Origin: a virus
DNA: 38,776 bases
Reading direction: 5' to 3' (one strand)
Virus record (IMG/VR): IMGVR_UViG_3300044998_000308
Coordinates: 1-38,776 of that record
In this document: in pieces, positions 1 through 38,776 of the stretch
Layout: each line of letters opens with the position of its first letter
How positions within the stretch are numbered: the first letter of the stretch is position 1
The notes under the pieces: model-generated
The model's input: the letters and a program-made list of their open reading frames with translations, nothing else
What the model was told of the DNA's origin: nothing
Database searches by the model: none
Position numbers and translations under genes: made by a program

Positions 1-621
1 GCTGTGCAGTTCACCGGCTACGCCGCGGTCTGGGGCCGGACGGACAGCTACGGCGACACCGTGCTCCGCGGTGCGTTCCTCGAAAGCCTGAAAGAACGCC
101 GCCCGATGATGCTGTTCGGGCATTCGCCGGGGCGTGTTCCGGGCAAATGGCTCGAATGGGAAGAAGATGACAAGGGCCTCCTTATGCTCGGCGAGCTGAC
201 GCCCGGGCATTCAGAGGCGCAGGACATCGCTGCCAGCCTGAAGCACGGGGCGTTGAACGGCCTGAGCATCGGCGGCTACACGACCGACTGGGAAAGCCGC
301 GACAACGGCGGCCGGATCATCAAGGCGTTCGACTTGTACGAGGTGTCGATCGTCAGCATGCCGGCAGAACAGGAAGCCCGAATCGATACCGCCAGCGTGA
401 AAGCCGCGCTGGATCGCTGCTCGAAAGTTTCCGAAATAGAGGACCTGCTGCGCGAGGCCGCGGGCTGCTCTAAGTCGGCCGCGACCGCCATTGTGTCGCG
501 CCTGTCGCGCCTGCTCCGGGGTGAGCCCGAGGCCGACCCGACGCCAGCCGCCGCCGGGCAACTGCTCGACGTGCTTCGTTCGACCCGAATCCCGCGTTCA
601 CTCTTGGAGGGTGACAAATGA
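1..621 (+). CDS. HK97-type prohead protease (3' part; gene starts at 38533 across the circle join)
   Basis: Serine protease of the U35 family that cleaves the capsid scaffold (delta) domain during head maturation. The window opens inside the gene. The 127-bp terminal repeat places the ATG at 38533, giving a 244-residue protein (39 residues from the far end plus 205 here). Visible family motifs are the LFGHSP histidine (residue 79 of the full protein) and NGLSIGG with the presumed nucleophile Ser127, followed by a valine-rich strand ending in SMPAEQEA. The C-terminal 90 residues are helical and less conserved, typical of the self-cleaved tail. The stop overlaps the capsid ATG (ATGA). It follows the portal and precedes the capsid gene, the usual HK97 order. 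Confidence 0.93.
   Translation, partial: AVQFTGYAAVWGRTDSYGDTVLRGAFLESLKERRPMMLFGHSPGRVPGKWLEWEEDDKGLLMLGELTPGHSEAQDIAASLKHGALNGLSIGGYTTDWESRDNGGRIIKAFDLYEVSIVSMPAEQEARIDTASVKAALDRCSKVSEIEDLLREAAGCSKSAATAIVSRLSRLLRGEPEADPTPAAAGQLLDVLRSTRIPRSLLEGDK
4..130. repeat. Left copy of 127-bp terminal direct repeat
   Basis: Identical to 38650-38776. Bases 1-3 (gct) differ from 38647-38649 (gcg) only at the last base, a synonymous alanine change. The repeat lies inside the prohead protease reading frame, which stays open across the join, so it marks an overlap of a circular or circularly permuted molecule rather than a gene duplication. Confidence 0.95.
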
Positions 622-1916
622 ACAAGTTCATCACGTCGGTCAGCAACGGCATGCGTGCCGCGCTGGCCAGCAAGCGCGCACTGCCGCGCGACTACTTCGG
701 CCGGCCGATGGACCGGAAGGACACTCCCGCCCCCAGCGCCGCCACCATCAAAACGATGGAGGACCTTCGCACCGCGTTTCTCGAACAGCACCGCGAGCTG
801 ACGCAGTTCATCGAGAAGGCGAACGGCGAGCTGAAGGAAACGGGCAAGGTGGCCAACGAAACGGCCAGCGCCATGCGGGCGCTATCCGAGTCGCTGAACA
901 CGCTCGGGACCCGGCTCGACAAGGTGGAGGGCAAGGCTGACCGGCTGGGCGAGGGCGAGCGCACGGCGAAGTCGCTGGGCGAGCAGTTCGTCGAGTCCGA
1001 GGAATGGGCGTCGTCTGGCGCGCTGCTCAAGGTGGCCAAGGCCCGCTGGGAGACGCGCGCTATCGTCAACGCCACCGGCCAGAACCAGCCGCTGGTTCCC
1101 GACATGCGGGTGCCCGGTATCGTGGCTACGCCGAACCGGCGGCTGCGCATCCGGCAGCTGCTGCCGGCGGGCACCACGTCGTCGAATCTGGTGCAGTTCG
1201 CGAAGGAAAACGTGTTCACGAACAACGCCGGACCGCAGGCGGGTGGCTCGCCGACCGTCGCGGCCGAAAACGTCGTGAAGCCCGAGAGCGACATCACGTT
1301 CACGCTGGCGAACGCGCCCGTCGTCACCATCGCGCACTTCATCCTCGCGTCCCGGCAGGTGCTGGACGACGCGCCGATGCTGGCCAGCTACATCAACGGC
1401 CGGCTGCAGTACGGCCTCGCGCTCGAGGAGGACGAACAGCTGCTGCTGGGTGACGGCACCGTCGGTAAGCTCGACGGCCTAATGAATCAGGCGACGTTCT
1501 ACAACCGCGCCCAGACGGGCACGAAGCTCGACTGGCTGCGCCGGGCCATCACGCAGCTGCAGCTGTCCGAGTACGACGCCGAGTTCATGGTCCTGAACCC
1601 CGCCGACTGGGAGGACATCGAGCTGACCAAAGATCAGGACCTGCGCTACCTGATCGCAAACCCGGTGTCGATCCTCGGCCCGCAGCTCTGGGGCCTGCCG
1701 GTAGTGCCGACGAACACGATGCCCGAGGGCCAGTTCCTTGTGGCGAACGGTTCGATGGCTGCGCAAATCTGGGATCGGTCGCAGGCCGCCATCGAGGTCA
1801 GCCGCGAGGACTCGGATAACTTCCGGCGCAACATGGTGACCCTGCTCGCCGAGGAGCGGCTGGCGCTGACGGTGTACCGCCCGTCGGCGCTAATCAAGGG
1901 CGTGTTCAGCGTCTAA
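618..1916 (+). CDS. Major capsid protein, HK97 fold
   Basis: Shell subunit of the phage head, 432 residues. Residues about 35-130 are charged and helical, forming a coiled-coil delta (scaffold) domain expected to be removed by the preceding protease. The mature HK97-like part begins near residue 130 and contains the family-typical stretches VPDMRVPGIV, LQYGLALEEDEQLLLGDGT, FMVLNPADWEDI, GLPVVPTNTMP and the C-terminal FRRNMVTLLAEERLALTVYRPSA. The start is supported by GGAGG seven bases upstream and an ATGA overlap with the protease stop. Length and order (portal, protease, capsid) match HK97-type phages. Confidence 0.96.
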   Translation: MNKFITSVSNGMRAALASKRALPRDYFGRPMDRKDTPAPSAATIKTMEDLRTAFLEQHRELTQFIEKANGELKETGKVANETASAMRALSESLNTLGTRLDKVEGKADRLGEGERTAKSLGEQFVESEEWASSGALLKVAKARWETRAIVNATGQNQPLVPDMRVPGIVATPNRRLRIRQLLPAGTTSSNLVQFAKENVFTNNAGPQAGGSPTVAAENVVKPESDITFTLANAPVVTIAHFILASRQVLDDAPMLASYINGRLQYGLALEEDEQLLLGDGTVGKLDGLMNQATFYNRAQTGTKLDWLRRAITQLQLSEYDAEFMVLNPADWEDIELTKDQDLRYLIANPVSILGPQLWGLPVVPTNTMPEGQFLVANGSMAAQIWDRSQAAIEVSREDSDNFRRNMVTLLAEERLALTVYRPSALIKGVFSV

Positions 1917-1986: not shown

Positions 1987-2388
1987 GTGTATCTGGTTCG
2001 TGCTCTGCGGCGCTTTGCGTCGGTCGACGAGGGGTGGATTCCCCGCGGCGCTACACTTAGCGTTCCCCGTGACCGCGCGTTCGAGCTGGCAGGGTCCGGC
2101 GTGGTCGAAATCCTCGAGGGCGACGATCGCGCGTGGAATTTCGAGACGAAAACCGAACCGCATGCATTGTCGCCAGTGGCCCCAGCGCCGCGCGCGTCGA
2201 CGTTACCCGTACCGCCGGCTGGCCAACCGTCGCCGTTAACGACGGCTACCGCATCGCCGGCCACGCCGACCACGTCTACGCGGCCGACGCGCGCTGGTGG
2301 GACTACCACGCGCCGGCGGTCCGTGCGCAGTGCCCCCGCGCGCAGCTCTGGACCTGCACCGGAGCCGCCGCCCGACGGCACGGACTGA
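1987..2388 (+). CDS. Hypothetical head-region protein with overprinted C-terminus
   Basis: GTG start preceded by GGGGAG at good spacing. The first 60 residues (YLVRALRRFASVDEGWIPRG and on to about ILEGDDRAW) look like a real small protein of the kind found after capsid genes in phages. The remaining 70 or so residues are Pro/Thr/Arg-rich low complexity and lie over the start of the next gene (2133) in another frame. The true product may therefore be only the N-terminal part with a lost stop, or the two frames may once have been joined. Function unknown. Confidence 0.55.
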   Translation: MYLVRALRRFASVDEGWIPRGATLSVPRDRAFELAGSGVVEILEGDDRAWNFETKTEPHALSPVAPAPRASTLPVPPAGQPSPLTTATASPATPTTSTRPTRAGGTTTRRRSVRSAPARSSGPAPEPPPDGTD

Positions 2389-2729
2389 ACCTGCTGCAGT
2401 ATGAACGCGGGCCGGGCCTGAGCGTCCGGCCGGGCATCGTCCGGACCGGCGGTGCCGTGGGCAATTCCGGCGCCCAAGCCATCAACCTTGCCTACTTGCT
2501 CGGCGCCCGCCGGCTGGTGCTGATCGGGTTCGACATGGGCGAGCAGGGGCACTACTTCGGCGACCATCCGCCGGGCCTGCACGTCGTGAGCCCGTGGGAG
2601 CGTATGCGCGCCGGTATGGCCACGATGGCCGCGGAACTGGCCGCGCTGGGCGTGCAGGTGGTGAACTGTTCGCCGCTGACCGCCATCACGTACTGGCCGC
2701 GCGCCGATCTACCCGACGTGCTGCCCTAG
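2133..2729 (+). CDS. Rossmann-like protein, DUF115/Maf-like (often labelled norphogenetic protein)
   Basis: 198 residues from a GTG start. A glycine loop CIVASGPSA (residues 11-19) after a beta strand, then VAVNDGYRIAGHADHVYAADARW and a later strand LVLIGFDMG (about 128-136), resemble the DUF115/Maf and CST-like sialyltransferase type of Rossmann fold. Phage homologues with this motif are known next to head genes. The fold suggests binding of a nucleotide or nucleotide-sugar; the reaction is not known. It is the first member of a ten-gene sugar and methyl transfer cassette placed between capsid and connector genes. It overlaps the preceding ORF by 256 bases. Confidence 0.75.
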   Translation: MEFRDENRTACIVASGPSAARVDVTRTAGWPTVAVNDGYRIAGHADHVYAADARWWDYHAPAVRAQCPRAQLWTCTGAAARRHGLNLLQYERGPGLSVRPGIVRTGGAVGNSGAQAINLAYLLGARRLVLIGFDMGEQGHYFGDHPPGLHVVSPWERMRAGMATMAAELAALGVQVVNCSPLTAITYWPRADLPDVLP

Positions 2730-2760
2730 CGGGCCGCGCAACGGCCCGGCACAATGGGCC

Positions 2761-3579
2761 ATGCGCCGCGCGCATCTGCTGATCCGTCACGAACCGCACT
2801 ACCGGCGCGAAGCCTTCGCGGCTGGGTTGCAGGCGTGCGGCTATCAGGTGGCCGGCTACCCGCGCGAGCGCGCCCGCCCCGGCGACCTACTGGTGATGTG
2901 GAACCGCTACGGCGCCAATCACGCGCTGGCCGAGCGCTTCGAGGCCGCCGGCGGCGTCGTGCTGGTGGCCGAGAACGGCCTCATGGGCCGTGATTCCCCG
3001 GGCGGCCCGTGGTACTCGCTGTTCCGCGGCGCGCCGGCGGGTGCCGGGTGGTCACCAGAGGGGCCGGCCGACCGGTGGTTCGCGCAGGGGTGGACGCTGG
3101 CCCCGTGGCGCGACATGCCAGCAGGCGACGTGCTGATCCTTGCGCAGCGCGGCATTGGCCCGCCCGGGGTGGCCCAGCCGCACGGCTGGCACCGCGACAT
3201 CGCCCGTCGGCTGGCGCACTGGGGCCGCGTGCGCATCCGCGAACATCCCGGCGAGCGGCCGGCGCTGCCGCTGGCCGACGACCTAGCCAACGTCCGCGCC
3301 GTGGTCACGTGGGCCAGCGCGGCGGCGCTGAAGGCAATGGCGGCGGGGGTGCCGGTGTTCTACGGGTTCCGCAACTGGATAGGGAAGGGCTGCGGGCAAT
3401 GGCTCGACGACGCGACGATCCGTGGGCCGTGCGCCCCGGTATTCCCCGACCGGACCGCGACCTGCGGGCTTGTTGGCTGGGCCACGTGGACGACCCGCGA
3501 GTTATCGACCGGCCAGCCTTTCCGGCACGTGCTCGGGTGGCCGTCTACCGCATCGCCGACCATCACCGATCACGCGTGA
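2761..3579 (+). CDS. GT-B-like glycan synthesis protein, paralogue 1
   Basis: 272 residues, ATG start. N-terminus MRRAHLLIRHEPHYRR leads into alternating strands and helices (VLVVAEN-like, DVLILAQRG, RIREHPGERP). The C-terminal signature VVTWASAAALKAMAAGVPVFYG resembles the donor-binding segment of GT-B glycosyltransferases of the KpsS/capsule_synth type. A terminal motif WTTRELSTGQPFRHVL is shared in pattern with the next two genes, so the three are diverged paralogues. Its 3' end overlaps the next gene by about 43 bases. The assignment rests on motif pattern, not on a database hit. Likely role: transfer or processing of a sugar on a virion protein or a host glycan. Confidence 0.6.
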   Translation: MRRAHLLIRHEPHYRREAFAAGLQACGYQVAGYPRERARPGDLLVMWNRYGANHALAERFEAAGGVVLVAENGLMGRDSPGGPWYSLFRGAPAGAGWSPEGPADRWFAQGWTLAPWRDMPAGDVLILAQRGIGPPGVAQPHGWHRDIARRLAHWGRVRIREHPGERPALPLADDLANVRAVVTWASAAALKAMAAGVPVFYGFRNWIGKGCGQWLDDATIRGPCAPVFPDRTATCGLVGWATWTTRELSTGQPFRHVLGWPSTASPTITDHA

Positions 3580-4373
3580 TAAGCGACGCCATGGCCGAGG
3601 GCATCGCCGCCGCCGGGGACGTTCCGGTGCTGGCGTACGAGCACGAATTCGCCGGGCAGCCGGTCGCCGACGCTGCCGTGTTCTACGGCCTCGAGGGCCG
3701 CCTGCCGCACGTGTTCGCCGCCTACAAGGGGATCGGGCGCGCGGTGTACGTGGACCTTGGGTACTGGGATCGGCGCCGTGGCGGCCGTTTCGCCGGCTTC
3801 CACAAGATAGCGGTCAACGCCCGCCACCCGACGGCCTACTTCCGGCGGCCAGCCCACCCGCCTGACCGATTGCGCGCCGTGGCCGCGCCCATCAAGCCGT
3901 GGCGCAGGAACGGCCGGCATGTTCTGGTCGCTGGCATGGGCGACAAGGGCGCCAGAGCAGAGGGCTACGCCACCGAAGCGTGGGAGCGCTGGGCCATCGG
4001 CGAGCTGCAGCGGTATACCGCCCGCCCGATCGTTTACCGGCCGAAGCCCAGCTGGAAGAAGGCCCGCCCCATCGCTGGCACCATCTACTCGCCGCGGACC
4101 CGGGAAGTCGCCGATGAGCTGCGCGACTGCTGGGCCGTGGTCACTCACCACAGCAACGTTGCCGTCGACGCGATCATGGCCGGCGTGCCGGCGTTCTGCT
4201 GGGAAGGGGTGGCCGCCTGTATGTCGGGGCAGGAGCTGGCTGGGATAGAGTCGCCACCGATGCCGGACGGCCGCGAGCAATGGGCTGCCGACATCGCCTA
4301 CACGCAGTGGAGCGTCGAGGAAATGCGGACCGGCGCAGCGTGGCGCCATCTGCGGCAGGAGGGGCTTCTGTGA
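3537..4373 (+). CDS. GT-B-like glycan synthesis protein, paralogue 2
   Basis: About 278 residues if the GTG at 3537 (VAVYRIADHHRSRV) is used; an ATG lies at 3591. The reading frame is open further upstream, but that part shadows the preceding gene. It shares with the next gene the segment ARPIVYRPKPSWKKARPIAG, the motif VVTHHSNVAVDAIMAGVP and the C-terminal W-S-VEEMRTGAAWRHL pattern. These fit the nucleotide-sugar-binding half of GT-B enzymes (capsule_synth-like). The stop overlaps the next GTG (GTGA), implying translational coupling. Substrate unknown. Confidence 0.65.
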   Translation: MAVYRIADHHRSRVISDAMAEGIAAAGDVPVLAYEHEFAGQPVADAAVFYGLEGRLPHVFAAYKGIGRAVYVDLGYWDRRRGGRFAGFHKIAVNARHPTAYFRRPAHPPDRLRAVAAPIKPWRRNGRHVLVAGMGDKGARAEGYATEAWERWAIGELQRYTARPIVYRPKPSWKKARPIAGTIYSPRTREVADELRDCWAVVTHHSNVAVDAIMAGVPAFCWEGVAACMSGQELAGIESPPMPDGREQWAADIAYTQWSVEEMRTGAAWRHLRQEGLL

Positions 4374-5233
4374 GGATCGTTTTCTGGCATTCGGACAAGC
4401 CGCGCGAACGGCTGCTGGCCGATGCGTTCGCCGACGGTGCCCGGGTGCACGGCGACACGGTGGAGCTGCGGCCGCTGGAATCGGGTCCCGTGTCGCCGGC
4501 CGACGCCGACGTGGTGTGCATGGTCGGGGTGAAGTCGCGCGAGCTGTACCGCGTGCACCAGCGCGAGGGCATTCACGTCGTCTACTTCGACAAGGGCTAC
4601 ACGCGTCACGCCGCGCCGACGCCGGTGAAGCTCTGGGAGTATTGGCGGGTGTCGGTCGACCGGCATCATCCGACCGAAATGCTCATGGACATTGCCCGCC
4701 CGATGGACCGCGCCGACCGGCTCGGGCTGGTCATGCAGCGATGGCGCAAGCCGACGAAGCGCGGCCACGTGCTGATCGCCGGCAGCTCGGCGAAGTACCA
4801 CCAGTTCTATGGGCTGAAGGCGCCGACGCCGTACGCGCACAAGCTGGTGGCTGCCCTGCGCGAGCATACGGCACGGCCGATCACGTACCGGCCCAAGCCC
4901 AGCTGGAAGGATGCGGAGCCAATCGAGGGGACCGAGTACAGCGGCACCGATCAGACGATCGAGCAAGCGCTGGCCGGCGCGCATTGTCTGGTGACCCACG
5001 GCAGCAACGCGGTGTTCGAGGCGGTGCTGCTCGGCATCCCGTGCGTGGTGCTGGGCGACGCGGTGGCCCGGCCAATCAGTAGCACCAGCGTCGCCGACGT
5101 TGAGGCGCCCTACTTGGCGACGTATGAACAGCGGCACCAGTGGCTTGCGAATTTGGCTTATTGGCAGTGGACGATGCCGGAACTGCACCGCGGCGAGGCG
5201 TGGCAGTATCTGCGCCCGCTGATCTACCGATGA
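4370..5233 (+). CDS. GT-B-like glycan synthesis protein, paralogue 3
   Basis: 287 residues from GTG at 4370, with GGAGGGG just upstream and a 4-base overlap with the previous stop. MRIVFWHSDKPRER opens a Rossmann-like half. ARPITYRPKPSWKDAEPIEG and LVTHGSNAVFEAVLLGIPCVVLG match paralogue 2 closely and are the best-preserved copies of the GT-B-like donor motif in the cluster. The C-terminal WQWTMPELHRGEAWQYLRP repeats the shared family ending. Function inferred only as glycan transfer or synthesis. The stop overlaps the next ATG (ATGA). Confidence 0.68.
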   Translation: MRIVFWHSDKPRERLLADAFADGARVHGDTVELRPLESGPVSPADADVVCMVGVKSRELYRVHQREGIHVVYFDKGYTRHAAPTPVKLWEYWRVSVDRHHPTEMLMDIARPMDRADRLGLVMQRWRKPTKRGHVLIAGSSAKYHQFYGLKAPTPYAHKLVAALREHTARPITYRPKPSWKDAEPIEGTEYSGTDQTIEQALAGAHCLVTHGSNAVFEAVLLGIPCVVLGDAVARPISSTSVADVEAPYLATYEQRHQWLANLAYWQWTMPELHRGEAWQYLRPLIYR

Positions 5234-5835
5234 ACCGTCACACGCGTCCGTCGCAGGACTACGAGGCCGCCGTTCGCGCGGCGAGCCGTCATCACATGCG
5301 ATCGAAAACGTACAGCGGGTTGCTGCTGCGCCCGCACGCGGCCGCCATCGGCGCCCTGATCCGTGAACACGGCTGCCGGTCAGTGCTCGACGTGGGCTGC
5401 GGAAAGGGCGAGCAGTACCGCTGGGTATCGCCCGGGCCGCCGCATTCGGCGGTGCCGTCCGGCCTGACGCTGGAGCAGTTCTGGGGCGTCGAGGTCACGA
5501 AATATGACCCGGCGGTGCCGGCGTACGTGGCCGAGCCGCGCGGCACGTTCGACGCGGTGCTGTGCACGCACGTGCTTGGATCGGTTCCCACCGTCGACCT
5601 GCCGTGGTTCATCGACCGGCTCTACGGGTGGGCCTCGCGGGTGGTCTACGTGGCGGAAAAGCTCGGCCCAGTCAAGAAAAGGGTGCTCGACGACGTGCCG
5701 GGCTTGCCGCGCGGGTACCAGCGCGCCGACTGGCTGCGAGTATTGGACCGGCCCGCGGGCCGTGGCCTGCACGTGGTCCTGTCAACAACCGGCGACGAAT
5801 CCGGGACCATCCGGGAACAGGTGCGCATCCGATGA
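5230..5835 (+). CDS. Class I SAM-dependent methyltransferase
   Basis: 201 residues. Motif I SVLDVGCGKG (residues 51-60) and the later FDAVLCTHVLGSVP strand are the SAM-binding hallmarks of class I methyltransferases of the Methyltransf_11/25 type. The enzyme is small, without a recognisable substrate domain. The genes on both sides act on sugars or small molecules, so a sugar or glycan O/N-methylation is more likely than DNA methylation; this is inference. The ATG at 5230 overlaps the upstream stop, and its own stop overlaps the next ATG. Confidence 0.82.
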   Translation: MNRHTRPSQDYEAAVRAASRHHMRSKTYSGLLLRPHAAAIGALIREHGCRSVLDVGCGKGEQYRWVSPGPPHSAVPSGLTLEQFWGVEVTKYDPAVPAYVAEPRGTFDAVLCTHVLGSVPTVDLPWFIDRLYGWASRVVYVAEKLGPVKKRVLDDVPGLPRGYQRADWLRVLDRPAGRGLHVVLSTTGDESGTIREQVRIR

Positions 5836-6830
5836 GAATTCGCGTCCTTGGCGGCGGGTGGTACGGCTGCCATCTGGCGCTGGCGATGCAGCGCGACGGG
5901 CACGAAGTCGAGCTGCACGAAATCGCCGACCGGCTGTTCGCTGGGGCCTCGGGTGGCAACCCGGCCCGGCTGCATCTGGGCTTCCACTACCCGCGCTCGC
6001 GGCTCACTCGCGTGCTATGTCAGGAAAGCCACCGGCTGTTCATGGCCCAGTACGGCGCGCTCACGCGCACCGTGCCAGTCAACGTCTACGCCGTCGCAGA
6101 CGGCGAAAGCCTGATCGACTGGGGCACCTATCGGCAGGTGCTGCGCGGCGAGGTCGACTTCGTGGAGCTTGAGCGGCCGTCCGAGCTTGGGCTGGCGAAC
6201 GTCGAGGGCGCCATGCTGACCGGTGAGCGGCACATTGTCATCGATGAGGCGCGCGCATGGTTCACGGAACAGCTGGGCGATGCGGTCCGGCTGAACATGC
6301 CCCCGGACGCCGACCCGGACGGCTGGGACTGGACGATCGATTGCACGTTCTGCGCCCGCGACGCCGAGCGGGTCGACCGGTACGAGCCGTGCGTAACGGC
6401 GCTGCTCGAGGGGCCAACCGATCGCGCGGTCACCATCATGGACGGCCCGTTCCCGTCCGTTTACCCGTGGAACGAACAGCAGGGCCTGTCGAGCCTGACC
6501 AGCGCCCGCTACACGCCGCTGGCCCGCTGCTCGACGTACTGGCATGCCCGGCAGCTGCTCGACGACTGTTCGGCCAATGACGCGATGCGCCGCGGGGTGC
6601 TAATGCTCGGCCAGATGGCGAAGTTCTGGCCGGCCGTGCAGGAGCTGTACCGCGTCGTCGACGCCCGCCTGACCATCCGCGCTCAGCCCATGAGCGGGTC
6701 GGACGCCCGGTTCGTCGACGTGGTGCGCCCGCTGCCCCGGACGCTGCGGGTGAGGGCGGGGAAAATCGACGCGATCCTGCACGCCGAACAGCTGATCCGC
6801 GAGGCGATATGTTCACCGCAACCGGGGTAG
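5832..6830 (+). CDS. FAD-dependent oxidoreductase (DAO-like)
   Basis: 332 residues. The N-terminal Rossmann dinucleotide motif is GGGWYG (residues 7-12), followed by EVELHEIADRLFAGASGG and RLHLGFHYPRS, a pattern of FAD-dependent oxidoreductases found in surface-polysaccharide clusters. A central FVELERPSELG region and a late ARLTIRAQPMSGSDAR complete a typical two-domain length. It probably oxidises an amino or hydroxy group of a sugar or small metabolite. Start ATG overlaps the preceding stop; the 3' end overlaps the next gene by 22 bases. Confidence 0.78.
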   Translation: MRIRVLGGGWYGCHLALAMQRDGHEVELHEIADRLFAGASGGNPARLHLGFHYPRSRLTRVLCQESHRLFMAQYGALTRTVPVNVYAVADGESLIDWGTYRQVLRGEVDFVELERPSELGLANVEGAMLTGERHIVIDEARAWFTEQLGDAVRLNMPPDADPDGWDWTIDCTFCARDAERVDRYEPCVTALLEGPTDRAVTIMDGPFPSVYPWNEQQGLSSLTSARYTPLARCSTYWHARQLLDDCSANDAMRRGVLMLGQMAKFWPAVQELYRVVDARLTIRAQPMSGSDARFVDVVRPLPRTLRVRAGKIDAILHAEQLIREAICSPQPG

Positions 6831-7402
6831 GGTCAACGATCGTTCGCGAGCTGGCCACCATCACCGGCGAACACGCGCAGCGGATCGAGGGCGACCTAAG
6901 CCAGTACGGCGCCGAGCTGACCATCCCGGACGGTAGCCACCGGTACGTGTTAGCCGCCGGCGTCCTGCACGGTCGAGCGGTGCAGGACCTGACCCCGGAA
7001 CAGGTGCGCGAAACGCTGGCCGTTAATCTGGTCTCCGTTGTGCGAATCTGCGACACGGTGCTCCGGCGGGACCCGAAGGCCCGCATCTGCATTATCGGCA
7101 GCCAGTCCGGCTGCCGCTGGTCATTCGACGAGCTGTACGCGCTGGCCAAGGGAGCCGTCCACCGGTACGTTGAGCAGCGGCCGACGCGCTGCTGTCAGCA
7201 GCTGGTGGCCGTCGCGCCCCCGATCATCGCCGACTCCGGGATGACGATGCGGCGGCACGATTACCCAGCCGTGCTGGCAACCCGCCCGCACTGCCGGGCG
7301 GTCGACGTGGCCCGGGTGGTGCACCGGCTGTTGTGGACGCCGCGGGAGCTGGCGCCGTCGGGGCTGGTGGTGCCGGTGCCCGCTGGGAACGTGATGGCAT
7401 GA
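6809..7402 (+). CDS. Short-chain dehydrogenase/reductase (SDR)
   Basis: 197 residues. The sequence carries TGVGST near the start, a VLAAG strand (NNAG equivalent, about residues 47-51), AVNLVSVVRI with the helix-4 Asn73, IIGSQSG with candidate catalytic serines, and YALAK (Tyr110, Lys114), the SDR catalytic pair. It is short for an SDR (usual length near 250), mainly in the cofactor-binding start, so the nucleotide site may be reduced. In this context a sugar keto-reduction or epimerisation step is plausible. The stop overlaps the next ATG. Confidence 0.75.
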   Translation: MFTATGVGSTIVRELATITGEHAQRIEGDLSQYGAELTIPDGSHRYVLAAGVLHGRAVQDLTPEQVRETLAVNLVSVVRICDTVLRRDPKARICIIGSQSGCRWSFDELYALAKGAVHRYVEQRPTRCCQQLVAVAPPIIADSGMTMRRHDYPAVLATRPHCRAVDVARVVHRLLWTPRELAPSGLVVPVPAGNVMA

Positions 7403-8007
7403 CGGACAAGCGGAAGCCGCCGCCGGACGCCGACCGGCCCCTGTACCTGCGGGCGCTGGCCTACGCGCGATCCGGTGCTGCCGCCATCGACGGCGGCGCC
7501 AACGTCGGCAACTGGTCACGGTGGATGGCTGAACACTTCGACGCGGTGCACGCGTTCGAGCCGAACCCGCGCTGCTGGCCCGCGTTCGAGGACATGCCGC
7601 CGGGCGTGGTGCTGCACCGCGCCGCGCTCGGCGAGGCCGCGGGCGAGGCGTGGCTGTACCAGCCACCGAAGCGCAGGGCCACCACGGCGGGCTACGTCGG
7701 GTCGGCAGAGCATGCCCCGCCCGTTGAGCGGCCACGCGCGGAGCCGGTCGCGGTGGCCACGGTCGACGGCCTCGGGCTGACCCGGTGCGGCCTGCTCAAG
7801 CTCGACATCGAGGGTGGCGAGCTGTACGCCCTGCGCGGCTCCCGGCAGACGCTGGCCCGCTGCCGACCCGTCGTCGTCGTCGAGGTATCGGCGCTCAGCC
7901 ACAAGCATTACGGGGTGCCAGAGGCCGACGTGCGCCGGCTGCTCAGCGACGCCCGGTACACGCGGCTAACGCTCGCCGCGCCGAACGAAATATGGGTGCC
8001 GCTTTGA
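7399..8007 (+). CDS. FkbM-family methyltransferase
   Basis: 202 residues from ATG at 7399 (ATGA overlap). Motif I IDGGANVGN (30-38), acidic post-motif HAFEPNP (51-57) and the family-typical LLKLDIEGGE (132-141) identify a SAM-dependent FkbM methyltransferase. The family O-methylates sugars, polyketides and lipooligosaccharides, so it fits the glycan theme of the cassette. It is the second methyltransferase of the cluster and unrelated in detail to the one at 5230. Confidence 0.88.
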   Translation: MTDKRKPPPDADRPLYLRALAYARSGAAAIDGGANVGNWSRWMAEHFDAVHAFEPNPRCWPAFEDMPPGVVLHRAALGEAAGEAWLYQPPKRRATTAGYVGSAEHAPPVERPRAEPVAVATVDGLGLTRCGLLKLDIEGGELYALRGSRQTLARCRPVVVVEVSALSHKHYGVPEADVRRLLSDARYTRLTLAAPNEIWVPL

Positions 8008-8738
8008 AGCTCACGATCTGCACGGGCTGGTCGCCGGCCGGGTACCACGAATACGGCCGACGGTTCGCCGAGTCATTCGCACGGCACTGGCCAGAGTCGG
8101 TCGAGCTGGTGGTCTACGGCGAGGAACCCGTACCGCTGCCCCGGGGCACGTTCCGGCCACTGTCGGACATCCCGGGGTGCGCCGAATGGCTGGCCGCCCA
8201 CGATGCGCCGCGTTACCGGGGGCACCGTGACGGCCCGGACTACAAATGGCGGCTGGACGCGTGGAAGTTCAGCCGGCAGGGGTTCATCCCGGCCGCGGCT
8301 GCTGCGGAGCTGCCGGACACCGGCACCCCGCAGTTTCTCGCGTGGCTCGACGGGGATGTCATCACGCACCGCAAGGTGCCCGAGGGCTGGCCGCAGCTAC
8401 TGCTGCCGCCGGGCTTCGACGTGGCCTATCTGGGCCGGCCGCCCAAGCACTCCGAGATTGGATTCCAGCTCTACCGGCTGAACGGACCGGGGTCGCCTGC
8501 GCTGCGGCTGCTCGAAATGTTCCGCGAGCTGTACCTGTCGGGCGCGGTATTCCGGCTGCGCGAATGGCACAGCGCGTTCGTGTGGGATGAAGCCCGGGTG
8601 CGTAGCGGCGCCCGAGCATTCAACCTGACGCCGAACGGCCACGGCCACGTCTGGCACCAGTCGCCGCTGGCCCGCTACACCGACCATCTGAAGGGGAAGC
8701 GCAAAGCCTATGACCGCAGCCCAGAGCGCAGGCGATAG
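7992..8738 (+). CDS. GT-A-like glycosyltransferase
   Basis: 248 residues from ATG at 7992; a TTG at 8004 forming a TTGA overlap with the previous stop is an alternative. LTICTGWSPAGYHEYG resembles the first strand and donor-binding loop of GT-A enzymes. YKWRLDAWKFSR precedes AWLDGDV with a DGD metal-binding motif (residues 120-122), and a later GHGHVWHQSPL carries histidines near the expected third ligand. It is predicted to transfer a sugar from a nucleotide donor. It overlaps the next gene by 29 bases. Family assignment comes from motif layout only. Confidence 0.7.
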   Translation: MGAALKLTICTGWSPAGYHEYGRRFAESFARHWPESVELVVYGEEPVPLPRGTFRPLSDIPGCAEWLAAHDAPRYRGHRDGPDYKWRLDAWKFSRQGFIPAAAAAELPDTGTPQFLAWLDGDVITHRKVPEGWPQLLLPPGFDVAYLGRPPKHSEIGFQLYRLNGPGSPALRLLEMFRELYLSGAVFRLREWHSAFVWDEARVRSGARAFNLTPNGHGHVWHQSPLARYTDHLKGKRKAYDRSPERRR

Positions 8739-9495
8739 CGGGCCGCTGACCGTCTACGTCGGCTGGGACCCGCGCGAGGTCGCAGCCTTCGACGTAACGG
8801 TGGCCACGCTGAAGGCCCGGGCGTCCGTCCCGGTCCGCGTGGTTCCGCTGAAACGCCGGCGGCTCGAGCGTGCCGGCCTGCTGACACGGGTGGTGCAGCC
8901 CGTAGCGGCGGGTGACCGGCGGCTGGTCAGCGGCCGCTGGTACACGTTCCCGGCCGGCACGCTCTGGGATGTCACCAGCGGCGCCCCGATGGCCACCGAG
9001 TTCGCGGTTTCCCGGTTTCTCGTGCCGGCGCTGGCCCAGTCCGGCTGGGCGCTGTTCGTCGACTGCGACGTCGTGTTTCTCGGCGACGTGGCCGAGCTGC
9101 TTGAGGTGGCCGACCCGCAATACGCCGTGCAGGTGGTCAAGCACGGCGAGCTTCCCGGCGAAGGGCTGAAAATGGACGGGCAGCCGCAGCTGGCCTACCC
9201 GCGGAAAAACTGGTCGTCGGTGGTGCTCTGGAACTGCGACCACGCCGGGAACCGGCGCCTGACGCTACGTGAGGTCAACGGCTGGCCGGGCCGGGACCTG
9301 CACGCGTTCCGGTGGCTCGCCGACGAACATATCGGCAGCCTGCCGGCCGGCTGGAATTGGCTGGTCGGGGTGCAGCCTCGCCCGCCCGACCCGAAGGTGG
9401 CACACTTCACGCTCGGCGGGCCATGGCTGCCCGGGTGGAAAGGTGCCGAGCATGACCAGCTCTGGGTATCAGCTGCGGCGACTGTTCGGCCCTGA
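8710..9495 (+). CDS. GT8-like glycosyltransferase
   Basis: 261 residues. LTVYVGWDPREVAAFDVTVATL at the start and TEFAVSRFLVPAL followed by ALFVDCDVVFLGD (DCD at 118-120) give the strand, helix and DxD arrangement of retaining GT-A glycosyltransferases close to family 8. A late VAHFTLGGPW supplies the histidine and glycine loop typical of the third metal ligand. It is the last gene of the cassette and overlaps the head-tail connector gene by 44 bases, so it is made from the structural-gene transcript. Confidence 0.8.
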   Translation: MTAAQSAGDSGPLTVYVGWDPREVAAFDVTVATLKARASVPVRVVPLKRRRLERAGLLTRVVQPVAAGDRRLVSGRWYTFPAGTLWDVTSGAPMATEFAVSRFLVPALAQSGWALFVDCDVVFLGDVAELLEVADPQYAVQVVKHGELPGEGLKMDGQPQLAYPRKNWSSVVLWNCDHAGNRRLTLREVNGWPGRDLHAFRWLADEHIGSLPAGWNWLVGVQPRPPDPKVAHFTLGGPWLPGWKGAEHDQLWVSAAATVRP

Positions 9496-10078
9496 AGTCG
9501 AGCCGATCACCGTCGCCGAGGCGAAGGCCCACTGCCGGGTCGACGCCGACCTGACGGCCGAGGACGACCTGTTCGCCGGCTGGATTACCGCGGCCCGGGA
9601 GCTGGCCGAGGATTACACGAAGCGCACGTTCTGCGAGTCCGTGTGGGAACTGTGGCTGGACGATTTCCCGCGCTTTTCCGATGACCTGCGGGTGGTCCTG
9701 CCGATGGGCGCCCCGTTCGTCGCCGTCGAGTCCGTGTCCTACCTGTCGACGAATGGCGACCGCGTCGAGCTGGCCGGGTATGAGGTCCTGCCAGACGAAC
9801 CGCCAGCCATCCGGCCGTCCCCGTGGACCGTCTGGCCCGTCGTGAGCTGCGCCGCCGGGGCCGTCCGGGTCCGGTACCGGGCCGGCTACGTCGGCGAGGG
9901 GTCGCCGGCCGGGGCCGAGGCGGTACCGCAGCGCGTCAAGCAGGCCCTGCGGATGCTGGTGGGGCACTGGTACGCGAACCGGGAAAGCGTGACCGCCGGC
10001 GGCTCGACCGGCGCTGCGCCTGTCGAGGTGCCATACAGTTTCGAGCGGGCGCTCGACCCGCTGCGGGTGTACCCGTGA
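9452..10078 (+). CDS. Head-tail connector protein (HK97 gp6-like)
   Basis: 208 residues from ATG at 9452. PITVAEAKAHCRVDADLTAEDDLFAGWITAARELAEDYTKR is the characteristic N-terminal helix pair of gp6-like connectors (phage_QLRG/TIGR02215 type). A middle beta region (VVLPMGAPFVAVESVSYL) and VPQRVKQALRMLVGHWYANRE match the family C-terminus. It forms the ring below the portal. Position before the adaptor genes agrees. Confidence 0.88.
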   Translation: MTSSGYQLRRLFGPEVEPITVAEAKAHCRVDADLTAEDDLFAGWITAARELAEDYTKRTFCESVWELWLDDFPRFSDDLRVVLPMGAPFVAVESVSYLSTNGDRVELAGYEVLPDEPPAIRPSPWTVWPVVSCAAGAVRVRYRAGYVGEGSPAGAEAVPQRVKQALRMLVGHWYANRESVTAGGSTGAAPVEVPYSFERALDPLRVYP

Positions 10079-15911: not shown

Positions 15912-16333
15912 TAACCGGCGCGCAGATTGCGGCCGCCGCGCAATCATGGGTTGGCGTCCCGTTTCTGCATCAGGGCCGCAACCGGCAGGGGGTCGACTGC
16001 GCGGGCCTGATAGTGGCCGTGCTGCGCGAGGTCGGCTGGTTCCACCCCGACTTCCGCGACTACCCGCGCTACGGCCGAGCGCCGCAGGTTGCGCTGCGCG
16101 AGGCCGTCGAGCGCATCGGCCAGCCGACCGCCACGCCGGCGCCGGGCGTCGTGTGCCTGATCCGCTGGCCACGCGAGCGGATGGCATCGCACATCGGCTG
16201 GCTGACCGGCGGCACGCTGGTGCACGCGAACGGGCAGGCGCGGCGGGTGGTCGAGCACGGGTACCGCGGGAACTGGGTCCGGGATACCGTCGCGCTGTAC
16301 CGGCTGACCGGGGTGGACTACGGCGATGAGTAA
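15908..16333 (+). CDS. NlpC/P60 tail peptidase
   Basis: 141 residues. The catalytic cysteine lies in RQGVDCAGL (Cys31), with histidines in RMASHIGW (His95) and LVHAN (His106), giving the papain-like NlpC/P60 triad. It is the single-domain form used at the tail tip to cut peptide bonds in peptidoglycan during DNA entry. It overlaps the following hub gene by eight bases. Confidence 0.92.
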   Translation: MITGAQIAAAAQSWVGVPFLHQGRNRQGVDCAGLIVAVLREVGWFHPDFRDYPRYGRAPQVALREAVERIGQPTATPAPGVVCLIRWPRERMASHIGWLTGGTLVHANGQARRVVEHGYRGNWVRDTVALYRLTGVDYGDE

Positions 16334-19300
16334 CGTCGGGCAGGGCGTGTTCGCTGCGGTCGGCGGCGTCGTCGGATTCATCATCGGCGGCCCGACGGGC
16401 GCGGCCTACGGGTTCCAGATAGGGCTGCTGGCCGGCTCGGCGCTGTTCCCGACCCAGCTGCCCGGGGTGCAGGGGCCGCGGCTGCAGGACCTTGATACCG
16501 CCCAGCAGGACCCGGGCGCACCGGTCCCGATCGTCTACGGCACGTGCGCGATTACCGGAACCGTGATGTGGCTGGGCGAGGTCATCGAATCGAGCCAGAC
16601 GGACACCGTGGGCGGCAAGGGCGCGCCCGAGCAGGACGTAACCACCTACACGTACAGCCAAAGCGTTGCCATCGGCCTCTGCGAAGGCCCGCTGGGCGGC
16701 GTGCTGCGCATCTGGGAGAACGGCCGGCTGGTGTATGACGCGCGGCCCCAGCTGGCCGGCGAAACGGACGCCGACTTCGTGGCCCGCGGCGAGGCGGCCT
16801 CGGCCTATCTGGAAAACCTGACCATCTACCTTGGCACCGAGGATCAGGAACCCGACCCGACCATCGAGGCGGACAAGGGCGTCGGGAACGTGCCGGCGTT
16901 CCGCGGGCTGGCGTACATGGTCTACGCCAACCGGCAGCTGACGGACGACCAAGGGCGCCGGCACCCGGTGTTCAAGGTCGAGGTCAGCAACAACCCCGCG
17001 AACGTGCCGGTGCTTATCTACGACGTGCCCGGGGCCCAGACTTGGACGAAGCCGCGGGGGCTCGCATCCGCGCGGGTGACCGTGCTCGGCGGCGGCGGCG
17101 GCGGCGGGGCTGGCGCCGGACTGGCGGCCAACGGGTTCATCGGTTCCGGCGGTGGCGGTGGCGGTGGCGGTTTCTCACGCGCCACGTTCGCCGCCGACGT
17201 GCTTCCGGAAACGGTGGCCGTCACGGTCGGCGCAGGCGGTGCTGGCGGCACCACGACGCTGGACACGACGGGCAACGGCAAGCCGGGCACGGCCGGGACT
17301 AGTGGCGGGGCGTCGTCGTTCGGTGCGTTCCTGACCGCTGGCGGCGGTGGCGGCGGCGGCGGTGGTATTGATTCGCAGAGCGGCACCGCCGCTGGGGGCG
17401 CCGGCGGCGTAGGCGGAACCGGCACTCTGTACACCGGTGGCGCCGGCGGCGCTGGCGAGGTCGGCAACGCGGCCGGGCCGCAGAACGGCAACCCGGGACA
17501 AACGGTGGTACTCGCCGGCGGTGGTGGTGGCGGCGGCGGGGCGCTGGACCGATTCGACGTGGCCGGCAATGCCGGCCCCGGCGGCAGCGTGCAGGCGCCC
17601 GGGGCCGTCCCTCTGGTCACCGGGGGAGCGGCTGGTGCCGGCTGCGCCCGCAAGGGCGGCTGTCAGGCATCCGGCGGCGGCGCCGGCGGCAACACTGGGG
17701 ACGACCCGTACAGCGGCGGCGGTGGTGGTGGCGGCGGCGGGTGCGCCGGCGGGAATTTCGTGCCCGGGTCCGGCCCAGCGATCGCTGGCCCGGGGGCTGC
17801 TGGAGGCCGCTATGGCGGCGGTGGTGGCGGCGGCGGCAGCGCTCAAGGACGGGTCTCGTCGAACATTGCCGCCGTCGCGCTGGGGGGTGCCGGCGGACCC
17901 GGTGGTAGCGGCGCCGTCATCGTCGAGCAGACGTACAGCACCAGCGGGTTGAAGCTGGCCGATGTCGTGCAGGACATCAGCCGGCGGGCGGGCCTCTGGG
18001 ATGTTGACGTGGAACAGCTGCGCGACATCCCGATCGACGGGTACGTGATCGGCCGGCCAATGCCTGCGCGCGCTGCGCTTGAGCCGCTGCGCAGTTTCGG
18101 CTGGTTCGACGGGGTGGAAAGCGGTTTCCTGCTCCGCTACGTGAAGCGCGGCGGAGTCGCCGTGGCCGAGCTTGGCGTGCAGGACTTAGGGGCGTCGGCC
18201 GGCGCGGACCGGCCACCGCCCGCCATTACCACACGCAAGATTCAGGACGTAGAGCTGCCCCGGCAGGTTCGGGTGCAGTACATCGACGTCGACCGCGATT
18301 ATGAACCCGGCGAACAGCTCAGCCCGACCCGCATCACGACCGAGGCCACGAACGACGTAGACGTCGCGGTACCGGTGGTAATGAACGGGACCAAGGCGGC
18401 CCAGATTGCCGAAATCCTCTGGTCAGACGCGTGGCGCTCGCGCTGGGTTCACCAGACGGCGGTCGACGGTTCGTGGCTGCGGCTCGAGCCAACCGACCCG
18501 ATTCTGGTGCCAGTCGACGGGCGCGTGCAGCGTATGCGCATAGTTTCTGTGACCGATGAAGGCCCGGAACTGCGGCGGCTCGAGCTGGTGCGCGACGACG
18601 ACGGCAGCTACATCAGCTACGCGGTCGCCGAGGCGCCCGACCGCCGGCCGAACGTCGTCACGCTGGTCCGCGATTCGGCGGTGCTGCTGTTGGACCTGCC
18701 GGCGCTGCGCGACGAGGACGACGACCCCGGCTTCTACGCGGCCGCATACCCGATCGGCCCGGGTACCGTGTGGCAGGGCGCTGTCCTGTTCAAGTCGATA
18801 GATGGCGGCCAATCGTTCGCGCCGTCCGGCACGCTGACGCAAGCGACGGTCGTCGGCACGCTCGCCGCCGGCCTGCCCGACGGGATCAGCTCGACGTTCG
18901 ACGAAGCGGCAGAACTGCTGGTGGACCTTGAGTATGGGACGCTGGAAAGCCGGACCGAGGCGGCGATACTCGCCGGGGCGAACGCCGCGGCAATCGGCGC
19001 GGACGGGCGCTGGCAGATCGTGCAGTTCCGGGACGCCGAACAGCTCGCCGGCGGGCGCTGGCGCTTGACCGGCATACTGCGCGGCCGGAAAGGTACCGAG
19101 TACCTGACCGGCGGCTCGCGCGCTGGCGATCGGTTCGTGATGGTCAGCACCGGCACCCTGATCCGGGTGGCGTTGCAGCTGTCCGAGGTTGGCGCGCTGC
19201 GCGTCTGGCGGTCGGTTTCTGTCGGCCGGCCCTACTCGACCGGGACAAATCAGGAATTCACCGGCCGGGCCCGGGCGCTGCTGCCGTGGTCGCCGGTCGA

Positions 19301-20543
19301 CATCGGCATCGAGGCCAGCGGCGGGGACCGGATCATCACGTGGAGCCGGCGCGACCGCTTCGGGCAGGAATTGCAGAGCGGCGTCGAAGTTCCGATGAGC
19401 GAGGACACCGAAGCCTACGAGGTCGACGTATTCGACCGGGCGGACACCGGCGCACCGCTGCTCACGCTGTCGACCAATGGGCCGCTGGCTACGCTGACCG
19501 AGGCCCAGCGGTACGCCATTTTCGGCAGCCCGTCGGACGGCGAGATTGCCGTGGCCGTGCATCAGATGTCGGCACGGGTTGGTCGCGGGGTACCCGGCTA
19601 CTTCCCGGCGGAGCTGTTCGCGTCGGTCACGGATGAAACGGTCGACCCGACCCCGGAGCCGCCCGGCGGCCGGTCGGTCGAGCTCGGGTATCTGGAGTTC
19701 GTGAAGTCACGCCGCCCCGGCGACACGTCGCAGCGGACGCTCGAGGCGCGCGCCCGCAACCCCGCCGGGCGGTACGTGCTGGACCTGCTGCGCAACGGCG
19801 GCGGCTCGTCGTCCTATTCGCTGCTGCGATTCAACGATGGCAACGACGTGAGCGTCGCCAGCGCCGGCGTGTTCGACGTAACCGACATGCTTCAGGACCC
19901 GACCGACCCGCGGTTCGTGTATCTGGCCCAGCTGTTCGGCGGCAACGGGCCGAGCTCGCCCGGCCCGGGCCTGCTGCGCCGCGTGAATATCGAGCTGCTG
20001 ACGGCTGGGGGGCTGATTTCCGGCGCGACGGTGGCCCAGCGGCTGACCGGGCTTTCCGGCGACCCGCAGCGGCTGGCCCTGATCGATGGTGTTTTGTACG
20101 CGGCGTGCCCGTTTGAGAATACCGTCGCCCGGCACGACCCTGCCGACCTGTCGCCGCTGTTCCCTGACCTGTTCCCGGGCTTCAGCCCGTTCTACGTGTT
20201 CGCGCGAGGCACCGAGCTATGGGCCGCGACGCGGGCGCGGCCGGCGTCGACGGTGTACCGCCTGAACCCGGTCACCGGAGCCGTCCTGTCGCAGTTCAAC
20301 ATCGCCCCGTTCTGCGTCGACGTGCGGGCGGTGGGCGACTTCCTGTACGCCATCAGCATTGACGACGAGCGGCTGTACAAGTACCGGCTGCCGGACGGTG
20401 CCCTGCTCTGGGATGCCGATTTCAGCGCGGAAACGTGGGGCGACTCACGAAACTACCTGCAGGTTGACGGCGCCCGGATCAGCGCCGGCCGGGTGGTGGT
20501 GCGGGTATACGATAGCGCCACCGACGAACAGCTCTACCCGTGA
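16326..20543 (+). CDS. Tail hub/host-specificity protein (J-like) with glycine-rich insertion
   Basis: 1405 residues. Residues 1-230 (hydrophobic Gly-rich start, then PVPIVYGTCAITGTVMWLGEV, SVAIGLCEGPLGGV, RGLAYMVYANRQL) are the usual start of GTA/lambda-J-like hubs. Residues about 233-540 form an inserted glycine-rich domain: it opens with AQTWTKPRGLASARVTVLGG, has eight or more runs of 5-9 glycines and closes with GSGAVIVEQTY. Residues about 545-900 (DVVQDISRRAGL, FDGVESGFLLRYVKRGG, MRIVSVTDEGPELRRLELVRDDDGSY) match the Phage-tail_3 core. The last 250 residues, with repeated strands such as LIDGVLYAACPFENTVARHD and YRLNPVTGAVLSQF, look like a beta-propeller. It closes the tail tip and probably determines host binding. 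Confidence 0.9.
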   Translation: MSNVGQGVFAAVGGVVGFIIGGPTGAAYGFQIGLLAGSALFPTQLPGVQGPRLQDLDTAQQDPGAPVPIVYGTCAITGTVMWLGEVIESSQTDTVGGKGAPEQDVTTYTYSQSVAIGLCEGPLGGVLRIWENGRLVYDARPQLAGETDADFVARGEAASAYLENLTIYLGTEDQEPDPTIEADKGVGNVPAFRGLAYMVYANRQLTDDQGRRHPVFKVEVSNNPANVPVLIYDVPGAQTWTKPRGLASARVTVLGGGGGGGAGAGLAANGFIGSGGGGGGGGFSRATFAADVLPETVAVTVGAGGAGGTTTLDTTGNGKPGTAGTSGGASSFGAFLTAGGGGGGGGGIDSQSGTAAGGAGGVGGTGTLYTGGAGGAGEVGNAAGPQNGNPGQTVVLAGGGGGGGGALDRFDVAGNAGPGGSVQAPGAVPLVTGGAAGAGCARKGGCQASGGGAGGNTGDDPYSGGGGGGGGGCAGGNFVPGSGPAIAGPGAAGGRYGGGGGGGGSAQGRVSSNIAAVALGGAGGPGGSGAVIVEQTYSTSGLKLADVVQDISRRAGLWDVDVEQLRDIPIDGYVIGRPMPARAALEPLRSFGWFDGVESGFLLRYVKRGGVAVAELGVQDLGASAGADRPPPAITTRKIQDVELPRQVRVQYIDVDRDYEPGEQLSPTRITTEATNDVDVAVPVVMNGTKAAQIAEILWSDAWRSRWVHQTAVDGSWLRLEPTDPILVPVDGRVQRMRIVSVTDEGPELRRLELVRDDDGSYISYAVAEAPDRRPNVVTLVRDSAVLLLDLPALRDEDDDPGFYAAAYPIGPGTVWQGAVLFKSIDGGQSFAPSGTLTQATVVGTLAAGLPDGISSTFDEAAELLVDLEYGTLESRTEAAILAGANAAAIGADGRWQIVQFRDAEQLAGGRWRLTGILRGRKGTEYLTGGSRAGDRFVMVSTGTLIRVALQLSEVGALRVWRSVSVGRPYSTGTNQEFTGRARALLPWSPVDIGIEASGGDRIITWSRRDRFGQELQSGVEVPMSEDTEAYEVDVFDRADTGAPLLTLSTNGPLATLTEAQRYAIFGSPSDGEIAVAVHQMSARVGRGVPGYFPAELFASVTDETVDPTPEPPGGRSVELGYLEFVKSRRPGDTSQRTLEARARNPAGRYVLDLLRNGGGSSSYSLLRFNDGNDVSVASAGVFDVTDMLQDPTDPRFVYLAQLFGGNGPSSPGPGLLRRVNIELLTAGGLISGATVAQRLTGLSGDPQRLALIDGVLYAACPFENTVARHDPADLSPLFPDLFPGFSPFYVFARGTELWAATRARPASTVYRLNPVTGAVLSQFNIAPFCVDVRAVGDFLYAISIDDERLYKYRLPDGALLWDADFSAETWGDSRNYLQVDGARISAGRVVVRVYDSATDEQLYP

Positions 20544-32860: not shown

Positions 32861-33316
32861 ATGCCGACACGTGCCCCGACCCACAAGCCCCAGCCCGCCC
32901 AGCTGCGGCAAGCCCGGCGGGCCAGCAACCCGGAGAACCAGCGCATGTACTGGGGGCGGTGGCGCCGGTACTCGGAGCAGTTCCTAAAGGCCAACCCGTT
33001 CTGCGTGCATTGTGCAGCCCAAGGTGTCGACCATCCGGCCACGGTAACTGACCACGTGATACCGCACCGGGGCGACCACGCGCTGTTCTGGGACCCTGCG
33101 AACCATCAGCCGTTGTGCAAGCGCCACCACGATCAGAAAACGGCCCGCGAGGACGGCGGCTTCGGCAATGCGCCGCTGGTGCGGGAACAGGCGAACCAAG
33201 GGCCAGCGCTGACCGAGTACGAGGAGTACGTTCGGGCCATGGGCGGGGACGCGGTGCCCCCGGTGGTTCGGGCTTGGGTGCGACGCAGAAAGAAACGCAG
33301 AGGGAATCAGCCGTGA
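32861..33316 (+). CDS. HNH endonuclease
   Basis: 151 residues. A zinc pair CVHC (48-51) and CKRHH (86-90) bracket the catalytic TDHVIPHRGD (His65) and FWDPANHQPLC, the classical HNH arrangement. Nucleases of this type stand beside terminase genes in HK97-like cos phages and assist the packaging cut. GTGA overlap with the next gene. Confidence 0.92.
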   Translation: MPTRAPTHKPQPAQLRQARRASNPENQRMYWGRWRRYSEQFLKANPFCVHCAAQGVDHPATVTDHVIPHRGDHALFWDPANHQPLCKRHHDQKTAREDGGFGNAPLVREQANQGPALTEYEEYVRAMGGDAVPPVVRAWVRRRKKRRGNQP

Positions 33317-38532: not shown

Positions 38533-38776
38533 ATGCCGTGGCATGAACAGAAGGGGCAGCTGCACTATCTGGCCTGCCGTGACCGGCGCGACCTGCCGCT
38601 GGAACTGTGCGAGCTGAAGTTTCACACGAAGGACGCGAGTAGCGGCGCGGTGCAGTTCACCGGCTACGCCGCGGTCTGGGGCCGGACGGACAGCTACGGC
38701 GACACCGTGCTCCGCGGTGCGTTCCTCGAAAGCCTGAAAGAACGCCGCCCGATGATGCTGTTCGGGCATTCGCCGG
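38533..38776 (+). CDS. Prohead protease, 5' part (continues at 4-621)
   Basis: ATG at 38533 with GAGGG eight bases upstream. The 81 codons here run in frame into the copy at position 4 of the window, joining to a 244-residue protease. The unique N-terminus is MPWHEQKGQLHYLACRDRRD; LELCELKFHTKDASSGAVQFTGYAAVWG is the usual U35 family start. Confidence 0.92.
   Translation, partial: MPWHEQKGQLHYLACRDRRDLPLELCELKFHTKDASSGAVQFTGYAAVWGRTDSYGDTVLRGAFLESLKERRPMMLFGHSP
38650..38776. repeat. Right copy of 127-bp terminal direct repeat
   Basis: Identical to 4-130. A 127-base overlap equals a k-mer length often used by assemblers, so it may be an assembly signature of a circular molecule and not a physical end. 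Confidence 0.95.

Follow-up and report, generated by a model that had tools for sequence, protein, structure and literature searches.

Why should a phage carry ten genes for building and altering sugars in the middle of its head genes? The question is raised by IMG/VR virus record IMGVR_UViG_3300044998_000308, which we analysed over its whole stretch of 38,776 nucleotides, referred to here as the window. A sequence-only reading had described a ten-gene glycan-modification cassette between the capsid and connector genes. We find the core of this cassette in many other phages, and we consider it probable that the whole is a mobile cassette, expressed late, whose enzymes attach a methylated and redox-modified oligosaccharide to the proteins of the phage's own virion.

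Location and gene content of the cassette

The window record is apparently circular (127 bases at 4–130 are repeated exactly at 38650–38776), and its unique length after removal of the end repeat is 38,649 bases. By gene content the phage is an HK97-type siphovirus, with genes for terminase, portal, protease, capsid, adaptor, head closure, tail terminator, major tail protein and further tail proteins. The ten open reading frames (ORFs) of the cassette, g1 to g10, lie on the plus strand at 2133–9495 and are bounded by the major capsid protein (MCP) gene and the head-tail adaptor gene. The position that had been claimed for the cassette was thus confirmed, and so was its share of the genome, 19% (7,363 of 38,649 bases). 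Cassette genes are given first, followed by their neighbours.

2133–2729, plus strand: g1, GT42-fold glycosyltransferase-like protein, MptE-like/DUF115 family, proposed anchor or initiating transferase
2761–3579, plus strand: g2, GT-B-like glycosyltransferase (GT), predicted, paralogue 1
3537–4373, plus strand: g3, GT-B-like GT, predicted, paralogue 2
4370–5233, plus strand: g4, GT-B-like GT, predicted, paralogue 3 (DUF6716)
5230–5835, plus strand: g5, S-adenosylmethionine (SAM) methyltransferase, accessory, missing from some relatives (Methyltransf_23, E 5e-7)
5832–6830, plus strand: g6, flavin adenine dinucleotide (FAD)-dependent oxidoreductase with predicted DAO fold, hallmark of the module
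6809–7402, plus strand: g7, compact short-chain dehydrogenase/reductase (SDR) with invariant N-S-Y-K
7399–8007, plus strand: g8, FkbM-type methyltransferase, accessory (PF05050, E 9e-15; TIGR01444, E 2e-20)
7992–8738 (or start at 8004), plus strand: g9, GT-A-like GT, predicted, with DxD motif
8710–9495, plus strand: g10, GT8-like GT-A glycosyltransferase, predicted, with FVDCD motif
618–1916, plus strand: MCP, HK97 type, upstream of the cassette (phrog_10, E 1e-66)
1987–2388, plus strand: small ORF of doubtful length between the capsid gene and g1 (no family match)
9452–10078, plus strand: head-tail adaptor (connector), downstream of the cassette (phrog_442, E 6e-29)

The coupling of the genes by four-base or short overlaps also holds. 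Four-base overlaps occur at the g3/g4, g4/g5, g5/g6 and g7/g8 junctions, and longer ones at g2/g3 (43 bases), g6/g7 (22) and g9/g10 (29); that of g8/g9 is 16 or 4 bases, depending on whether g9 starts at 7992 (ATG) or 8004 (TTG). The sole gap inside the set, between g1 and g2, is 31 bases, and g10 overlaps the connector ORF by 44 bases if the latter starts at 9452.

Recurrence of the gene set in other phages

A search of viral contigs with the single g6 sequence found only L087, and an alignment of four g6 sequences was needed for the wider set, in which g6-like genes were found in 35 viral contigs. Contig L087 (IMGVR_UViG_3300045902_000071) is a partial second contig of practically the same phage; its MCP and g1–g8 are 100% identical to those of the window and it stops within g9. 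Three strong g6 matches lie in bacterial assemblies, namely a Mesorhizobium chromosome and metagenome-assembled genomes of Alphaproteobacteria and Patescibacteria. At 90% identity the strong g6 relatives form 29 clusters, and g6 thus defines a phage subfamily. The carriers are almost all metagenome or uncultured-virus contigs, and all counts depend on how IMG/VR was sampled and on the use of g6 or the capsid protein to find the loci.

Where the contig was long enough, g7 was found within 1.5 kb downstream of g6 in 25 of 27 clusters and g9 in 24 of 26, and upstream of g6 we found g4 (21/25), g3 (21/24) and g2 (18/21). Among the 22 clusters whose contigs extend 3 kb to either side, profile searches detected at least three GT-B genes together with g6, g7 and g9 in 19, and g1 in 16; tblastn had placed g1 in 11 of 19 module loci, and for L172, L174 and L175 the profile search added a g1 at the opposite end of the set. 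The set lies between the MCP and connector genes, as in the window, in L153, L158, L160 and L176, and directly after the MCP gene in L149. The same core precedes the terminase and portal genes in L119, and, in L172, L174 and L175, a head-morphogenesis gene from a different type of phage. The gene order of the set is therefore kept while the head genes change, and head-gene neighbours were present in all loci whose flanks were read. Ratios of dN/dS for the cassette genes, where computable, were 0.06–0.45 across six pairs, and the tested genes are under purifying selection.

Because independent phages have these genes in the same order and the tested genes are under purifying selection, the cassette is not a chance assembly. 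Nor is it just a peculiar insertion confined to a single phage: judged from these gene neighbourhoods, the core (three GT-B genes, the FAD enzyme, the SDR and g9, usually with g1 and g10) is a conserved unit in many phages, some of them with unrelated head genes.

Locus L119 is in the chromosome of Mesorhizobium sp. M1B, where the module stands beside terminase and portal genes; it is apparently a prophage and a possible culturable carrier. A tblastn search with g6 of 50,697 deposited phage records returned one match, which is partial, so that the full module is unrepresented among these records. Among open-licence papers we found no description of this gene set.

A survey that started from the capsid protein, independent of the cassette, gives a second view of g1. 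Of 20 capsid-protein relatives with 3 kb of downstream sequence, 13 have g1 no more than 3 kb from the capsid gene, and no cassette gene besides g1 was found in L102 and L105. The adaptor gene follows the capsid gene after 142 bases in L107, and a head-closure gene follows within 0.4 kb in L093–L095; no cassette gene was found in these. The gene order of phage D3 is MCP, small ORF, g1 homologue (orf7) and head-tail adaptor, and PmgO of phage P1 and HdmB of phage P7 are also homologous to g1. On this distribution g1 is the predicted anchor of the cassette. P1 pmgO was reported to be non-essential by CRISPR interference (PMC10695390). A dispensable transferase beside a capsid gene is what would be expected of a particle-decorating enzyme, and dispensability alone is no proof of it. 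Two copies of g1 per contig were seen in L016, L019, L028 and L076, one before a GT island and the other near connector genes. The small ORF at 1987–2388 shares, in its 3' part, as many as 256 bases with g1 in a different reading frame; a similar overlap was seen in D3 orf6.5/orf7 and P1 pmgN/pmgO, and the ORF may represent a small gene conserved in the head region.

These distributions also bear on whether the ten genes have a common product at all. They could be morons gained singly at a hotspot that readily accepts insertions downstream of the capsid gene, a view favoured by the coming and going of g5 and g8, by the occurrence of g1 and g10 without the rest, and by the different islands behind the MCP gene in other relatives (L089–L092, L103 and L109). 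The recurrence of the core at different insertion places, the closeness of g7 to g6 in nearly all clusters and the purifying selection on the tested genes speak against it, and we regard such unrelated cargo as quite improbable.

Predicted functions of the cassette proteins

Structure models were built for g1 and g6, and the GT-B and GT-A calls for g2–g4, g9 and g10 are predicted from sequence. The identities given by the sequence-only reading (three GT-B-like and two GT-A-like enzymes, two methyltransferases including an FkbM type, an FAD enzyme and an SDR) agree with the family matches of the proteins or of their relatives. Its description of g1 as Maf/DUF115-like was in part retained, in that g1 matches MptE-like/DUF115 at 4e-5 (under the Pfam cut-off), but the protein is better described by its GT42 fold.

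The g1 protein matches PHROG 4603, labelled 'alpha-2,3-sialyltransferase', at 8e-33 and, among PDB profiles, Cst-II at 5e-5. Its model, built from 30 sequences, has a pLDDT of 91.9, and the top Foldseek matches are 2p56, 1ro7 and 2p2v (probability 1.00, TMq 0.52–0.63). The nearest solved folds are therefore the Campylobacter sialyltransferases Cst-I and Cst-II, in agreement with the profile match. Residues R129, Y156 and Y162 of Cst-II bind the CMP phosphate. In the profile alignment R129 is aligned to a glycine, Y156 to a variable position and Y162 to the invariant H140 of g1. Since the equivalents of R129 and Y156 are not conserved, we did not file g1 as a sialyltransferase and dropped the PHROG label as its function; on its model g1 is predicted to be a GT42-fold protein, with no sialyltransferase function assigned. 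The name MptE, a pterin kinase, was taken as a chance or fold-level match.

The match of g6 to DAO (3e-6) is just under the cut-off. Its model, built from 25 sequences, has a pLDDT of 91.5, and the glycines of the GxGxxG FAD motif (G7, G9 and G12) are invariant in the 25 sequences. Foldseek matched the model at E 1e-15 to 1e-13 to the folds of glycine oxidase (3.5e-15) and L-2-hydroxyglutarate dehydrogenase (L2HGDH, 6e-14). The model thus predicts a DAO-fold flavoenzyme closest to these two. Structure prediction, which had been proposed as a check on the cassette, accordingly gave a GT42 fold for g1 and a DAO fold for g6. In a Marseillevirus LCMAC201 protein annotated as a glycosyl transferase (BFVD A0A481YWN0), a region with the g6 fold was matched by Foldseek (E 4e-14), a hint of a possible GT–DAO fusion.

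The neighbouring g7 matches adh_short at 7e-8, and its SDR residues N73, S98/S100, Y110 and K114 are invariant in 23 sequences. With its cofactor motif TGxxxGxG reduced to TG-xx-S-x-I and a shortened N-terminal part, g7 is called SDR-like or compact here.

Among the predicted GT-B enzymes, g3 and g4 are paralogues (33% identity, E 6e-39) to both of which g2 can be aligned. A joint g2–g4 profile has a match (E 1e-3) to the Kdo transferase KpsC, and g4 matches the putative GT family DUF6716 at 5e-5; the match between g3 and a Mur ligase (E 0.015) was taken as chance or fold-level. The g9 protein itself has no family match, GT2 was found in 5 of 15 members of its family, and its DxD pair D120/D122 is invariant in the 15 sequences. 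Protein g10 matches PHROG 28018 (7.5e-50) and GT8 (4e-3), and GT8 was found in 20 of 37 family members (best 5e-9). Matches to PDB profiles were too weak for use for g10 (E 0.04) and g9 (E 0.15), and that of g9 to the capsid-glycosylating enzyme of PBCV-1 was not significant (E 0.15). NCBIfam gave nothing useful for g1–g4, g9 and g10.

Proposed pathway and its target

Six GT-like genes (g1–g4, g9 and g10) thus sit within a head block. In the pathway that we propose, the cassette genes would be made late, together with the head proteins. Protein g1 would start the glycan on a virion protein, the capsid being the first candidate, with a sugar taken from a host nucleotide sugar, and the three GT-B-like and two GT-A-like enzymes would lengthen it to a short oligosaccharide. 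A secondary alcohol (or an amine) of a sugar would be oxidised by g6 and the resulting ketone reduced by g7, which would yield an epimerised unit foreign to the host; optional methyl groups would come from g5 and g8. No nucleotide-sugar synthesis gene is among the ten, and activated sugars would therefore come from the host. The sugar coat may affect how the phage adsorbs, protect its particle or imitate glycans of the host. We infer the target, the order of steps, the sugar chemistry and the benefit alike.

The cassette could instead remodel a host surface glycan (capsule or lipopolysaccharide) during infection or lysogeny and so block superinfection or the re-adsorption of progeny; the sequence-only reading had offered such remodelling, as a means to keep out competing phages, as its alternative. 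GTs together with sugar-altering enzymes are typical of surface-glycan loci, and distant g6 relatives (about 30%) were found on alphaproteobacterial plasmids within glycan loci, beside glycosyltransferases. These plasmid loci also have a sugar isomerase or TIM-barrel protein, a GtrA protein in two of three and an epimerase/dehydratase in one. The setting of these g6 relatives counts in favour of virion glycosylation as well. Some module carriers, the L158 and L160 records, have an integrase, and we count here phage D3, which has g1 and converts the O-antigen, though through other genes. However, none of the ten proteins has a clear membrane segment, so all are predicted to be soluble, and no match to a GtrA/GtrB-type flippase, bactoprenol transferase or multi-pass Gtr protein, nor any polymerase, was found among them. 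Moreover, the genes are in the head block, the set stays by head genes even where the heads differ, and neither a tyrosine integrase nor a resolvase-type recombinase was found in the window. With no membrane or lipid-carrier enzyme among the ten, and with the genes placed inside the head block, this alternative is weakened and we consider it unlikely, while attachment of an unusual redox-made sugar to the virion is kept as the best reading.

That viral GTs hypermodify DNA with a variety of glycans is also known (Pyle 2024, as cited in PMC12619734). With that precedent the transferases could protect the phage DNA against restriction, and in Pelagibacter phage Mosig a part of the set adjoins a ribonucleotide reductase gene. 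Yet no thymidylate synthase homologue was found in the window or in nine other module-bearing viral records (several of them fragments), a Tet/JBP search gave no match although its control was silent too, and the set follows head genes and not replication genes. Since no enzyme for a hydroxymethylated base was found (for Tet/JBP with a silent control), DNA modification seems highly improbable. We therefore rank DNA hypermodification, seroconversion and random morons below virion glycosylation.

Several points weigh against glycosylation of the virion as well. R129 and Y156 of Cst-II are unconserved in g1, so that we infer its donor and even its transferase activity; the GT assignment of g9 and g10 is based on weak family matches of relatives; and late operon expression is presumed from the layout. 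In addition, Caulobacter jumbo phages have g1, GT-B and g10 homologues after their tail genes, and Mosig has its part of the set beside nucleotide-metabolism genes. As these sets sit elsewhere, the neighbourhood does not fix the capsid as the target.

Beyond virion glycosylation itself, we tentatively suggest, as a proposal that may be less probable than not to hold in full, that the cassette represents an autonomous, horizontally mobile protein-glycosylation pathway of phages. Its conserved core (a GT42-fold starter, three GT-B enzymes, an FAD–SDR two-step epimerase and two GT-A enzymes) would build one defined non-host oligosaccharide on the particle and pass whole from one head module to another, unrelated one, and it would have been missed because no deposited phage has the full-length FAD marker gene. 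If so, an entire glycan pathway moves as a cassette among the head modules of many phages, and virion sugar coats would be a much more general phage trait that affects adsorption and immune recognition. The g6 gene could serve as the marker for finding such phages; at least one carrier is in an alphaproteobacterium (Mesorhizobium), and the laboratory phages D3 (orf7) and P1 (pmgO) carry the proposed anchor enzyme.

Other features of the window

Directly before the terminase genes, at 33115–35088, the window encodes a ParB-N domain fused to an N6/N4 DNA methylase (PF02195 and PF01555, phrog_498). The tail-tip protein (16326–20543) has long glycine-rich stretches, at which the GC content reaches 76% (17000–18000).

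Comparison with known systems

The fold of g1 is that of the GT42 sialyltransferases Cst-I and Cst-II, but g1 is shorter and has no equivalents of R129 and Y156 in the profile alignment. The DprE1/DprE2 pair of mycobacteria, in which an oxidase and an SDR-type reductase act on a sugar, offers a possible working model for g6 and g7, by analogy only: DprE1 is a VAO-family flavoenzyme, whereas g6 has a predicted DAO fold and no homology to the pair.

P1 pmgO, P7 hdmB and D3 orf7 are g1 homologues as in the window, and D3 orf7 likewise lies between the MCP and adaptor genes, but none has the GT-B/FAD/SDR core behind it. Caulobacter phages CcrColossus and C1 (Dolichocephalovirinae) resemble the window in having a single run of g1, two GT-B-like genes and g10, joined in C1 by FkbM; that run is placed after tail genes, away from the capsid gene, and no FAD enzyme, SDR or g9 was detected in it. 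Tetraselmis viridis virus S20/SI1 (NC_020840), in which no homologue of g6, g7, g9 or g10 was detected, resembles the window in having the MCP gene, then g1-like proteins, GTs and methyltransferases, and then head closure.

Glycosylated particles have so far been shown in few phages, mycobacteriophages among them. Che8, Rita and their relatives have glycans on the capsid and tail tube (Freeman 2023, as cited in PMC11256854 and PMC12619734). According to these sources, Che8-type phages combine covalent virion glycans with phage-encoded GTs; the window also has GT-like genes of its own, six of them in the head block. The same accounts place the GTs of Maravista, a relative of Che8 and Rita, near the 3' genome end, unlike the head-block set of the window, and report no FAD–SDR pair for this type. 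In tblastn searches of the 50,697 phage records with g1, g4, g6, g9 and g10, no mycobacteriophage was named, for g1 among the best 60 of 73 records, with 5 groups unnamed. Glycosylation of virions by phage enzymes is thus already known, and what is new here is the redox pair and the recurrence of the genes as a multi-gene unit.

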